A model generated the notes under the pieces. That model made no database searches and was not told the origin of the DNA. It saw nothing but the letters and a program-made list of their open reading frames with translations. Below, piece after piece: positions 21,314 to 33,986 of a DNA stretch of 64,000 bases. Both the position numbers and the translations under genes were made by a program. Positions within the stretch are counted from its first letter, which is position 1; every line of letters begins with the position of its first letter. The DNA lies in the NCBI RefSeq assembly GCF_025136295.1, contig NZ_CP062788.1, positions 1,581,001 through 1,645,000 on the forward strand, written 5' to 3'. This DNA is from Aestuariispira ectoiniformans. GTDB lineage: Bacteria; Pseudomonadota; Alphaproteobacteria; UBA8366; Aestuariispiraceae.

Positions 21314-21339
21314 AAAGCCGCCCAAAGATGGACGGCTTT
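21314..21339 (-). terminator. Terminator after the CheW-globin gene
   Basis: AAAGCCG and CGGCTTT form the stem, with two more G-C pairs inside after a mismatch. Read on the minus strand it ends in six T residues, as expected for an intrinsic terminator of the gene that stops at 21359. Confidence 0.8.
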
Positions 21340-21358: not shown

Positions 21359-22459
21359 CTAACTGTCCAACGCCTTGATACGGGTTTCGTCGACCACCTT
21401 CATGATCTTGTCAACCTCCTCGTTGGAGGTATTCATCTCCACCAGTGTGGAATGAAGGGCGGTGCCTGCGGTGATGAAATGGTCGTCGGCAAGGCCGGGC
21501 TGGGTAATCAGCTTCATATAGGCCTGCTCCAACGTCGGGGTCTTAGAAACGCCGAAAGCTGCATTGAACAGGGCGACCAGCATGTCGAGCATATCCGGAT
21601 CGCTCACGTCCTTGAACAGGTCGGTCAGAACCGGGTCGCTGTCAATTTTCGCGGCATAAAGCTCGACGGCCTGCATGGCGCGGGCCTCGGCGTCTGCACC
21701 GGAGGCGGCTGCAGGGGCCGGATTGTCCGGAGCCTTTTCAACGGCCGGTGCAGGCTTCTTGTCTTCTTTTACCTTGGCGGCTGCGGGCTGGCTTGCCGCG
21801 CTCTCATTGTCTTTTCGGCCAACTTTCAGAACGACCTTGGCGGCATCGCGTTCATTGGTGTTGGCCTCAGGCTTTTTTTCCGCCTCGCTTTCGTCCGGCT
21901 TTTCGTCGGAATTCGCAGCTTTGGCCTGTTGTTTCTGGGCGGCGATCTGTGGCCGCGGACGACGGCGCGTGCGCGGCCGCGTCTTTTTAATGGTCTCTTC
22001 GTCCAGGATGCGTTCCACATCCAGAACCACCAGCAGGTCTTCCTCCAGGCGGAAAATACCAGAACAAACCCGCTTCAGGTTGTCGTCCAACGTCGCCGGG
22101 GCCTTGTCGAAGCTTTTCCGGGGCAGGGACCGCACGTCACCGATGCTGTCAACCAGCAGGGTGTAGAGGTCCCCTTTGTATTCGACCGTAACACTCATCT
22201 GTTTGCGATAGTCGTCGGTCGTCTCAGCACCCAGGCATTCGCGCAGGTCAATAACGGTGACGATGCGCCCGCGCAGGTTCAGGACGCCGGCAATGGCGCT
22301 CGGTGCGAGTGGTACAGGTGTGATCTGATCCGGCTCGACAATGTCCTGGACTTTGAGAATCGGTATCCCAAACAACTGGTTGTCCACCGTCATGGTGACC
22401 AGTTGTTCATCGTCACCGGTTGTCAGATCTTGAGTATCGGCTAAGGCAATGTCAGACAC
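21359..22459 (-). CDS. CheW-domain protein fused to a truncated-globin-like domain
   Basis: Protein of 366 residues in three parts. Residues 15-157 are a CheW coupling domain (VDNQLFGIPILKVQDIVEP, GVLNLRGRIVTVIDLR, YTLLVDSIGDVRSLP). Residues 158-258 are a charged, Ala/Pro/Lys/Glu-rich linker, apparently disordered. Residues 259-366 read like a group 1 truncated haemoglobin: LYAAKIDSDPVLTDLF, MLVALFNAAFG, LEQAYMKL, GLADDHFITAGTALHSTL and VDKIMKVVDETR. At the place of the proximal haem His there is Tyr314; His327 in DDHF is kept. GTG 22459 with GAGGAA upstream is the chosen start; a longer frame reaches 22543. No cheA or cheY is nearby. Confidence 0.8.
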   Translation of the reverse strand: MSDIALADTQDLTTGDDEQLVTMTVDNQLFGIPILKVQDIVEPDQITPVPLAPSAIAGVLNLRGRIVTVIDLRECLGAETTDDYRKQMSVTVEYKGDLYTLLVDSIGDVRSLPRKSFDKAPATLDDNLKRVCSGIFRLEEDLLVVLDVERILDEETIKKTRPRTRRRPRPQIAAQKQQAKAANSDEKPDESEAEKKPEANTNERDAAKVVLKVGRKDNESAASQPAAAKVKEDKKPAPAVEKAPDNPAPAAASGADAEARAMQAVELYAAKIDSDPVLTDLFKDVSDPDMLDMLVALFNAAFGVSKTPTLEQAYMKLITQPGLADDHFITAGTALHSTLVEMNTSNEEVDKIMKVVDETRIKALDS

Positions 22460-22638
22460 TTCCTCATTTCCCCAGTTGTTGTCGCCGCTAGCTCCCCTAG
22501 TCCAGCCAGGATTATGGTAATAGCAGATGCTTTGTTTATACAATCAAAAATCTTAACAGAGCCTTGACGTGAAACAATAATTGCGAGCGGATGGCGGAAT
22601 ATTTGAACATGTTCGCCGATGGAAGGGGGCAGGAAATT

Positions 22639-23262
22639 ATGGCCATATTGACCAACGGCCCGATTGAGACGGGACCGATTCTCATCCTGGCGCATGGCGC
22701 GGGTGCGCCAATGGATACGCCATTCATGACCTTTTTTGCCGAAGGGCTGGGGGCTGCCGGGATCGGCGTGATCCGATTCGAATTTCCCTATATGGCCGCA
22801 CGGCGGACAGACGGCAAAAAGCGTCCGCCGGACAGGGCGCCCAAGTTGCTGGATGCCTGGCGGGAGATCGTGGATAGATATTCCGGGCGCGACGTCTTTA
22901 TCGGCGGAAAGTCCATGGGGGGCCGTATGGCGACCTTGCTGGCATCGGAAGACCCGGAAGAGGCTATTAAGGGGGTGATCTGTCTTGGATACCCCTTCCA
23001 TCCACCCGGCAAGCCGGAAAAACTTCGTGTGGAGCATTTCCCGGATATCCGCGCACCTGTACTGATCTGTCAGGGGGAGCGCGACAGCTTTGGTAAACGG
23101 GACGAGGTTGAGGCGATGGCCTTGCCTGAAAGTTTTGATCTTCATTGGTGCCCGGATGGTGACCACGACCTGAAGCCGCGTAAGGCAAGCGGATTGACGG
23201 CTGAAGAGAACTGGCGCGCGGCTGTGGCAGCGGTTGCGGATTTCATTCGTGCCGGGCGGTAA
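22639..23262 (+). CDS. Alpha/beta hydrolase of the KANL3/Tex30 family
   Basis: Predicted serine hydrolase of 207 residues. It begins with ILILAHGAGAPMDTPFM, which forms the oxyanion region typical of this group, continues with RFEFPYMAARR, and has the nucleophile elbow GGKSMGGRMA (Ser in GKSMGG). The acid and His are expected at ICQGERDSFG and PDGDHDLKPR. The substrate is unknown. I prefer ATG 22639, with AGGA before it, since it gives the short N-terminus usual for the family; ATG 22591 is in frame. The TfoX-type gene starts three bases after the stop, so the two are probably co-transcribed. Confidence 0.85.
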   Translation: MAILTNGPIETGPILILAHGAGAPMDTPFMTFFAEGLGAAGIGVIRFEFPYMAARRTDGKKRPPDRAPKLLDAWREIVDRYSGRDVFIGGKSMGGRMATLLASEDPEEAIKGVICLGYPFHPPGKPEKLRVEHFPDIRAPVLICQGERDSFGKRDEVEAMALPESFDLHWCPDGDHDLKPRKASGLTAEENWRAAVAAVADFIRAGR

Positions 23263-23265
23263 CCC

Positions 23266-23613
23266 ATGGCAGTCTCGCGGGAATATCTGAACTATGTTCT
23301 GGATCAACTGGCCGGTATTCCCGGACTGTCCGCGCGCGCGATGTTTGGCGGGGCCGGGATCTACAGTGACGGCAGAATGTTTGCACTGGTCACGGACGAC
23401 TGTCTTTATTTGAAGGCGGATACCAAAAACCTGCCCATATTTGAGGCTGAGGGTGCCCGGCCATTTACCTATCGGCGCAGTGGAAAACCTGTGTCGTTGT
23501 CCTATTTCCTGGTGCCCGATGAAATCCTGGAGGACGACGTCCGGTTGAAAGACTGGGCGTGGCTTGCAATTTCTGCCGCGCGGCGGAAACCCGTAAAGAG
23601 AGAAAAGAGTTAA
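23266..23613 (+). CDS. TfoX/Sxy family protein (N-terminal domain only)
   Basis: Protein of 115 residues. ALSARAMFGGAGIYSDGRMFALVTDDCLYLKAD followed by RRSGKPVSLSYFLVPDEILED is the TfoX N-terminal domain pattern. Full-length TfoX of gammaproteobacteria, a competence regulator, has a second domain that is absent here; short versions are common in alphaproteobacteria and their role is not established. It lies three bases behind the hydrolase gene. Confidence 0.88.
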   Translation: MAVSREYLNYVLDQLAGIPGLSARAMFGGAGIYSDGRMFALVTDDCLYLKADTKNLPIFEAEGARPFTYRRSGKPVSLSYFLVPDEILEDDVRLKDWAWLAISAARRKPVKREKS

Positions 23614-23780
23614 TCAATTTTTATTAAATATCTTGAGGGTTGCATCTATTGCGGTAAGCATTCGTTAAGAAACTGATGATAGTTTCTAGCGCCGAGAGAG
23701 AGGATGGACCGGCGTGGAGAGCCCGTGAAGGGCACAACATGTTCGGGACAGCCGGAATTAGTGTTTCTGTAGGGGCGAAA

Positions 23781-24023
23781 ATGGGAATAATAATGGCTTC
23801 TTCGGATTATGATCCTGCCGAAATCAAGAAGCGGTCGGTTGTCATCGCCGGACACCGGACCAGTATTTCATTAGAGAATGTTTTTTGGGATTCTTTACGT
23901 AGCATTGCCAATGAACGCGAGATTTCAGTGAACCAGATGGTGACTGAAATCGACAAGCAACGGACGGGTAACCTGTCCAGCGCGATCAGGACCTATGTGC
24001 TGCAGTCCCTGATGACACAGTAA
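23781..24023 (+). CDS. Ribbon-helix-helix domain protein
   Basis: Small protein of 80 residues. The segment KKRSVVIAGHRTSISLENVFWDSLRSIANEREISVNQMVTEID matches the RHH_4 type of ribbon-helix-helix fold, with a beta strand followed by two helices, then a C-terminal helix SSAIRTYVLQSLM. It may bind DNA; no target is known. The start is chosen at ATG 23781 after AGGGG; ATG 23793 is possible, and the longer frame from 23676 looks non-coding. Confidence 0.75.
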   Translation: MGIIMASSDYDPAEIKKRSVVIAGHRTSISLENVFWDSLRSIANEREISVNQMVTEIDKQRTGNLSSAIRTYVLQSLMTQ

Positions 24024-31901: not shown

Positions 31902-33986
31902 CTAGTTGAGGATTTTGGACAGGCGGTCACGCAGGGTGTTGATCCCCTCGGAGACTTCGGCCGCGCCGGTGCGTACCTGCTGAGACAACTCACCCACATG
32001 GGCCGCACGGCTGGTCACCTCACTGATATCCTCCGTCACGCCACGGGTTGCCTCTGCAGCGCCACGGACGTTTGCGGTGATCTGGCGTGTGCCTTCGGTG
32101 CGGGCCTCGACGGTTCTGGAAATGTTGTCGGCCATTTCACTCATCTGCACGATCGTTTCCGAAATGGTCTGAATGGCATCCACCGTTACCTTCGTGCGGT
32201 TCTGCACCTGGGTGATCTGGGCGGTGATTTCCTCCGTCGCCTTTGTCGTCCGGTTGGCCAGATTTTTGACTTCGGAGGCCACCACGGCAAAGCCTTTACC
32301 AGCTTCTCCGGCCCGGGCGGCCTCGATGGTGGCGTTCAGCGCCAGCATATTGGTTTGATCGGCGATTTCGTTGATCAGGGTGATCACATCGCTGATCTTG
32401 CGGGCGTCTTCTGCCAGGGAAGTGACTGTCTCGCTGGCTTGCTGCGCCTCGTCGGAGACACGCCCCGCGACATCGCCGGACCGGCTGGCAAGGTCCATGA
32501 CTTCCCGGAAGGATTCGGTCACCTGCTCCGTCTCGCCGACCACGGATTCCGCGCTGTCGGTTGCCTGTTGTGCGGCGGCAGCAACAGTCTGGGAGCGACC
32601 TTCGGCATCCTGGGCCGATGAAGACATTTCATCAGCGATCCCTTCCAGGCGCTTCATGTTCTGCTGGATATCTGCGACAGTCACGCGAAGTTCGTCGTCC
32701 AGTTTCTGCGACATTTCCTGCAGCTTGTCCTGGATTTCCTTGCGCCGTGCCCGGTTGCGTTCTTCCTCATGGGCCTGCATTTCCTTCAATTCGACGGAAC
32801 TGCGCCGCAGTTTTTCCAGCGCACGTGCCATGACCGCCATTTCATCGCGGCCGGTTTTCGGGATGTCCACATCGGTTTCGCCATCACCGATCTGGTTCAT
32901 GGCGGTGGCAAAACGGCGCAACGGCCTGAAAGTCACGGATTGCAGGACCACCCAGCCGATGGCCCAGGCGACGACCAGTCCGGCAACAACAACGATGATT
33001 GCAAGGTTCCGTGTATTGGCAAGCGACTGGTTCAGGTTGCTCATATCGCGTGTGATCAGGGCGTGGGCCCAGGTGCCGCCAAAACTGTCCGGGATATCGA
33101 CACGCGTTGTCAGCATGTTTTCATTGGCCGGGACCGCTACCACGGATTCGTCTGCAGGCATTTCCGCGTTTCCGTCACCGGCGGCGTCTTCATTGGCGCT
33201 CTGGTTGTCTGTGGTTTCATCCGCGGCGGCCTGATCAGCATTGTCTTCCGATGCCGTCGCCGTGGGTTGGGGAAGGTCTTCCTCGAAGACGATGCCGTCA
33301 TTCACGTCGGTCAGTTTGAAGTCGCCGCCCATGGCGGTGTTGAGGCCGGGCAGGGTCACTTGCGGGTCCGTGACCAGCTCCATGAAACCGATGACACGGA
33401 AGCCGCCCAAGGGCGCGATGATGCTGTGAACGGGCCGGCCGTCCTTTGTGACCCAGCGATACATTGCGACCTGGCGTTGGGCTTTCTTGTCCCGGGCCAA
33501 AAGCTCGTCGACCAGACCTGGCGTCGACAGGACCGTCTCTCCCTGTCCCTTTGGGGACTGGGCCATGATCTTCATGTCGGCGTCGATGAAATTCACATTC
33601 ACAAATTGAAAGATGCCGTTTGTGAAGTCGGCGTGGCTGTAGACCTCGTCGGTCAGGGCCAGCAATGCCTTTTCGTTCTTGGTCTTCGCGGGACCGGTGA
33701 ATTCCGGGCGGCGTACCCAGTCAGACACCAATTTATTCAGCTTTCCTTCGTATTGCGTGCTGACGCGCTCGTTGACCAATACGCCTAGGGTGTCCTCGGA
33801 TGTGCCGACCAAAACGGAAAAGGTCAGTTTTCTGAATGAATCTGCGGTCCAGATCTGATTGGCTATGATACCGACGGAAAACAGGACCGACAGGATCAGC
33901 AGAACCCGCCTCAATGTCCAGATTGATGTTTGGCGATTGTCTTCCGGTACTTCCGTTGGTGTCCCAACGTCTGTGGCTTCGCTCAC
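31902..33986 (-). CDS. Methyl-accepting chemotaxis protein
   Basis: Inner-membrane chemoreceptor of 694 residues. TM1 is about 26-45 and TM2 about 327-350; between them is a 280-residue periplasmic sensor that includes an unusual Asp/Glu/Ala/Asn-rich insertion at about 237-291. A HAMP domain follows (about 350-405), then the signalling domain with the hairpin-tip block [33 protein letters not shown] and a short C-terminus without a CheR-tether pentapeptide. GTG 33986 follows GGAGGG and is preferred over the ATG at 34055, which lacks such a site. No other che gene is adjacent. Confidence 0.93.

Follow-up and report, generated by a model that had tools for sequence, protein, structure and literature searches.

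The locus analysed here raises the question of what a globin-like domain does on CheW, which couples all chemotaxis receptors to their kinase. The gene lies in a window of 64,000 nucleotides of the genome of the marine alphaproteobacterium Aestuariispira ectoiniformans (the window being the whole stretch of DNA that was analysed), and the following features were assigned in window coordinates.

21359..22459, minus strand: CheW–globin fusion CDS, 366 aa plus stop, GTG start, read from 22459 to 21359.
21998..22405, minus strand: CheW domain, residues 19–154 (Pfam PF01584, E-value of 2.5e-34).
21704..21979, minus strand: charged linker, residues 161–252, 92 aa (by composition, rich in A, K, P and E; low identity).
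21362..21703, minus strand: group 1 truncated-globin-fold domain, residues 253–366, 114 aa (sequence and fold matches).
21518..21520, minus strand: codon of Tyr314, at the proximal-His (F8) position (alignment to THB1 and haem-type orthologues).
21314..21339, minus strand: terminator-like hairpin followed by a T run, directly 3' of the CheW–globin gene (fold of -18.4 kcal/mol, z of -3.84).
22591..24023, plus strand: hydrolase-like gene and gene for a small conserved protein, adjoining the CheW–globin gene and kept in most family genomes compared.

The start of the fusion ORF (MSD or VSD) is kept across relatives. The PF01584 match covers model positions 1–136 of 138 (118 bits) and thus represents a full-length CheW-like domain. 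The normal CheW domain and the charged linker of about 100 residues described in the original prediction are both found in the protein. Neither MCPsignal nor Response_reg was detected in it by Pfam, which separates it from the globin-coupled chemotaxis sensors and from CheV (CheW fused to a C-terminal receiver domain), respectively. The small conserved protein of the adjoining pair is encoded at 23676–24023 (plus strand) and is perhaps of the ribbon-helix-helix type.

The C-terminal domain, when searched alone, had no match in Pfam (and hence none to Bac_globin) or in NCBIfam, and relatives and profiles were therefore used. With the single sequence, the seven best phmmer matches in the PDB were all truncated haemoglobins (E-values of 2.6e-4 for THB1 4xdi, 2.1e-3 for 1uvx, 3.2e-3 for 2ksc, and 5.3e-3 for 1dly), and profiles built from three Tyr-type sequences and from 17 fused relatives reached 1.5e-5 and 1.1e-35, respectively, against truncated haemoglobins. 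An AlphaFold model from the three Tyr-type sequences only, an alignment that contained no canonical globins, had a pLDDT of 84.7; with this model, Foldseek ranks 1 to 22 were all truncated haemoglobins, and VIA-align gave Z values of up to 10.9 (reached with THB1 over 109 residues). With 17 sequences the pLDDT was 90.7 and the matches were unchanged, the lower value of the control model being due to its alignment of three sequences only. A VIA Z value of about 10 is by itself no proof of a globin fold in an all-helical domain and was taken in combination with the sequence evidence. By similarity of both sequence and fold, the domain (residues 253–366) has the group 1 truncated-globin fold, in agreement with the original prediction, whose proposed profile search and AlphaFold model both returned truncated haemoglobins. 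That it is an unrelated helical bundle has a negligible probability: the isolated domain lacks a Pfam match and all-helical folds readily yield middling structural scores, but truncated haemoglobins were matched by sequence alone whether the query was one sequence, the three Tyr-type sequences, or the profile of the family, and in orthologues the corresponding region has a full Bac_globin match. The likeness is also not due to chance, because the CheW–globin fusion recurs in about 20 genomes.

These genomes, found by the search of relatives that had been proposed at the outset, belong to three families of one order. Within the window's family, all the close CheW orthologues that were read have the same layout, as do members of two further families; named carriers are Curvivirga aplysinae, Aestuariispira insulae, Hwanghaeella grinnelliae, and Marivibrio halodurans, together with Pacificispira spongiicola (in the NCBI taxonomy, Aestuariispira and Hwanghaeella are placed in Aestuariispiraceae, Rhodospirillales). 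In comparison with the three closest relatives, identity was 83–87% in the CheW domain, 59–72% in the globin domain, and 25–38% in the linker, which appears from these values to evolve fast. Because the globin domain keeps this level of amino-acid identity across three genera at saturated synonymous sites, beside so divergent a linker, it is regarded as being under purifying selection. The frames are intact in all genomes read. An Aestuariispiraceae-type CheW–globin was also present in a sequence titled ‘Mesoflavibacter sp.’ (L045, CP051228.1; Bacteroidota), which looks mislabelled or mixed. The CheW proteins of other Rhodospirillales (L052–L057) have long C-terminal tails without a globin; what is conserved among these tails is another stretch (LMTDLNAYES ... 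KARKKANRNRRPVSERWQEVLEEKAR).

The fusions of the sister families keep His F8 and Tyr B10 and are textbook group 1 globins, with Bac_globin matches of 3.5e-18 and 2.1e-16 (60–66 bits, cut-off 21). The residues of the window domain are different. Tyr314, correctly numbered and placed at the proximal-His position in the original prediction, aligns opposite the proximal His of THB1 (ASHRRL) and of the haem-type orthologues; the Phe-Tyr pair expected at B9–B10 is Tyr-Ala at residues 268–269 (B10 being Ala269), and Asp-Ala and Gly-Val occupy the positions of the Gly-Gly turns, which are altered in Aestuariispira and Curvivirga as well. Tyr314 is not a conserved residue, F8 being Tyr in only 5 of the 11 members of the window's family and otherwise Leu (3), Val (1), Ser (1), or His (1). 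His F8 is thus found in 1 of 11 fusions inside the family (L045/L031, the sole such member) versus 8 of 9 outside it (Fisher p = 0.0009, with related members counted as independent). Tyr B10 is almost always lost in the family, in a pattern parallel to that of F8. Both residues are kept in all 26 stand-alone or receptor-borne globins, whereas in many lineages His F8 is gone from the globins embedded in CheA or CheW, suggesting that it is the fold rather than the haem that is retained by the CheA/CheW core. Haem binding has probably been lost in the window's family while the fold stayed conserved, and we infer that the window domain contains no haem.

The alternative that haem is still bound through Tyr314 or another residue, and that the whole array is tuned by a domain responding to O2, NO, or redox state, appears unlikely. 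Tyr is a haem ligand in other proteins, such as catalases, the five family members with Tyr F8 include distant genera, and the sister families have haem-type residues. However, members of the same architecture have Leu, Val, or Ser at F8, and the domain of the window gives no Bac_globin match; because F8 varies and Tyr B10 and both Gly-Gly turns are gone, loss of haem is a simpler reading than ligation by Tyr. The same residues leave the gas- or redox-sensing adaptor that had been envisaged at first unsupported for the window protein. Of the two possibilities considered at that time, namely that haem is bound differently or that the domain became a protein–protein or ligand module, they speak against the former and fit better with the latter. 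The original prediction included neither the haem-type fusions of the sister families nor the same module inside CheA.

Three CheW-domain matches were identified in the genome, two of which lie inside CheA, so that the fusion protein is the sole stand-alone CheW; receptor-domain matches numbered 32. As the only stand-alone CheW, it should serve the whole array: it would be the adaptor between the receptors and CheA, and presumably all receptors depend on it as their coupling protein. Its gene lies outside the che cluster, about 1.66 Mb away, and no cheW was found within that cluster in the window genome. We take the gene order of the cluster to be cheA-cheY-cheB-cheR, beside chpT, ctrA, and fliI, the names being given by recognition of the sequences; the identity of its CheA was checked by Pfam. 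A chemoreceptor signalling domain is encoded in a 718-aa frame of the window (31989–32495, minus strand), about 9.5 kb from the CheW–globin gene. The only other PF01152-like match in the window genome (0.051) is a stand-alone truncated globin, 140 aa long and group 3-like by eye (L121:1465-1887, plus strand; C1 near 1.389 Mb).

Globins are also found inside the kinase. When named genomes were searched with the fusion, CheA kinases of Kordiimonas, Eilatimonas, Rhodothalassium, and Emcibacter relatives were matched as well; in these, a globin-like domain is located between P1 (phosphotransfer) and P3 (dimerization), and one of the kinases passes the Bac_globin cut-off (9.2e-7). A class-wide survey (386 genomes; 20 regions read) identified CheA globins in 15 other alphaproteobacterial genomes, some of them (L153, L155, and L156) with all the haem residues that were checked. 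These domains sit in the P1–P3 interval, the normal place of P2. Two CheA proteins (L165:4353-7952 and L166:2-2620) contain two truncated globins, one in the P1–P3 interval and another that interrupts the first of the CheW-like (P5) domains; this inserted globin keeps His F8 and Tyr B10. As judged from these relatives, the chemotaxis core has acquired such globin domains more than once. In a phylum-wide survey (397 genomes), frames of about 1,000 aa with a globin match were confined to Alphaproteobacteria, and outside this class no frame with a globin match was longer than 320 aa (lengths alone being considered).

Several further observations were made on these proteins. The CheA globins of the Emcibacter group (L061–L065, L068, L074, L077, L080, and L084) have Phe or a similar residue at F8, but His is conserved at B10 and may be a haem ligand that has changed position. 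A PAS-containing protein that begins with a group 1 truncated globin of the haem type is encoded in two genomes of the same genus (L154:3968-6832 and L172:3941-4990); L154 is a PAS-repeat chemoreceptor, and the frame of L172 ends at a contig edge. A CheA of Azospirillum obtained in a plasmid search as a named candidate for a CheA-globin was rejected, its match falling solely outside the globin part. The P1–P3 linkers of CheA in the window genome (L120:9517-12345) and at L174–L180 and L184–L188 are mostly of low complexity but carry a short conserved motif (roughly ELQAAFDxAxYKGPGDP), and a shortened form is also present where the globin is absent.

CheA-globins and CheW-globins never occurred together in the 15 genomes and 29 loci compared. 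In the 15 CheW-globin genomes (a set that excludes G016, which has no CheW-globin), switching the filters off still gave no match to a globin in CheA, whose P1–P3 stretch resembles a disordered linker. Conversely, the CheW encoded beside a CheA-globin (29 loci) is plain and ends 2–10 residues past its domain. This exclusivity rests on few independent changes, because all CheW fusions may go back to one evolutionary event. A tree was built from 80 globin domains, but its columns are too few to distinguish a shared origin of the CheA and CheW globins, with passage of the module between the two proteins, from separate captures of stand-alone globins; in it, the stem before the Tyr-type clade is very long (2.68 changes per column).

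With somewhat better than even confidence, we regard the protein as a CheW with a tethered globin-fold domain that descends from a haem protein and serves the CheA/CheW baseplate as a haem-independent accessory module. The ancestral CheW-globin, to judge from the sister families, most likely bound haem; the ligands would then have been lost in the window's family and the domain kept as a haem-independent module. Since the rings of the baseplate are built from CheW and from P5 of CheA, the flexible linker would hang the globin domain beside the kinase. The globin in CheA is a module in the P2 position, and the placements in CheA and CheW exclude each other; the globin may therefore do the same job in either protein. 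It would be a docking or regulatory module, with CheY, CheB, or another protein as partner, or serve for dimerization, rather than being a sensor of the receptor type. The fold, the fusion, its conservation, the loss of haem-ligand residues, and, in the genomes read, the exclusivity with CheA-globins are established at the sequence level. From these we infer the array location and the docking role of the module. Against this reading, the exclusivity is built on the few changes mentioned above, one family member retains His F8, the gene is apart from the che cluster, and a tethered domain could act away from the array.

Another explanation is that the domain directly senses a non-haem ligand in the vacated pocket and signals to the array. 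Stressosome proteins of the RsbR type have non-haem globin domains, and a stressosome chain (3zta) was among the VIA matches (Z of 7.8). The globin domain of HemAT is reported to bind ethanol with no involvement of haem (PMC7542364), which is a precedent for such a ligand. However, a long disordered linker is an unobvious route for a conformational signal; we consider direct sensing of this kind improbable. It is quite doubtful that the domain is a decaying, now functionless remnant of a haem sensor: the loss of the haem residues and the very long stem in the tree would fit with decay, but the identity retained among three genera at saturated synonymous sites, the intact frames, and the confident predicted fold argue against it.

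If the module reading is extended beyond the window's family, truncated globins may be a recurrent part of the alphaproteobacterial CheA/CheW core that replaces P2 and is placed on either the kinase or the adaptor, having once been array-gating haem sensors and repeatedly become haem-free modules; this generalization is tentative, and we rate it as possible rather than probable. If true, haem sensors once gated the whole array at the baseplate and not at a single receptor. Sensing of gas or redox state in chemotaxis is commonly seen as a matter of receptors, but a globin on the sole CheW, or in CheA, would act on all receptors simultaneously, and these proteins prompt one to ask whether the baseplate is itself a site of sensing or docking. 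The haem-type fusions of the sister families and the presumably haem-less ones of the window's family, which share one architecture, offer a natural comparison of a globin fold after haem loss.

In the literature searched, from which subscription papers were mostly absent, no CheW-globin, CheA-globin, or globin in the place of P2 was found, and globins in chemotaxis were described on receptors only; CheW-globins or CheA-globins may have been described elsewhere. The HemAT-type globin-coupled sensors resemble the window protein in linking a globin to chemotaxis signalling, but their globin is on the receptor and not on CheW, as originally stated and as confirmed by a 2026 review of aerotaxis for the known globin-coupled chemotaxis sensors (PMC13401364); the PAS/Bac_globin receptor of Corallococcus coralloides is a further receptor-borne case (PMC6194562). 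To the group 1 truncated haemoglobins (trHbN; PF01152; e.g. THB1 4xdi and Mycobacterium tuberculosis HbN 1idr) the window domain is similar in fold and profile over its whole length, but it is fused to CheW and has the proximal His, Tyr B10, and both Gly-Gly turns replaced. CheV likewise combines a CheW domain with a C-terminal accessory domain, which is a receiver there and a globin fold here. The N-terminal domain of RsbR in stressosomes, a globin fold that signals without haem, would share the haem-free state but differs in globin class and output; the Z value to the stressosome chain 3zta was only 7.8. P2 of Escherichia coli CheA, a dock for CheY and CheB, occupies the same P1–P3 interval as the CheA globins, but its fold is ferredoxin-like and not that of a globin.
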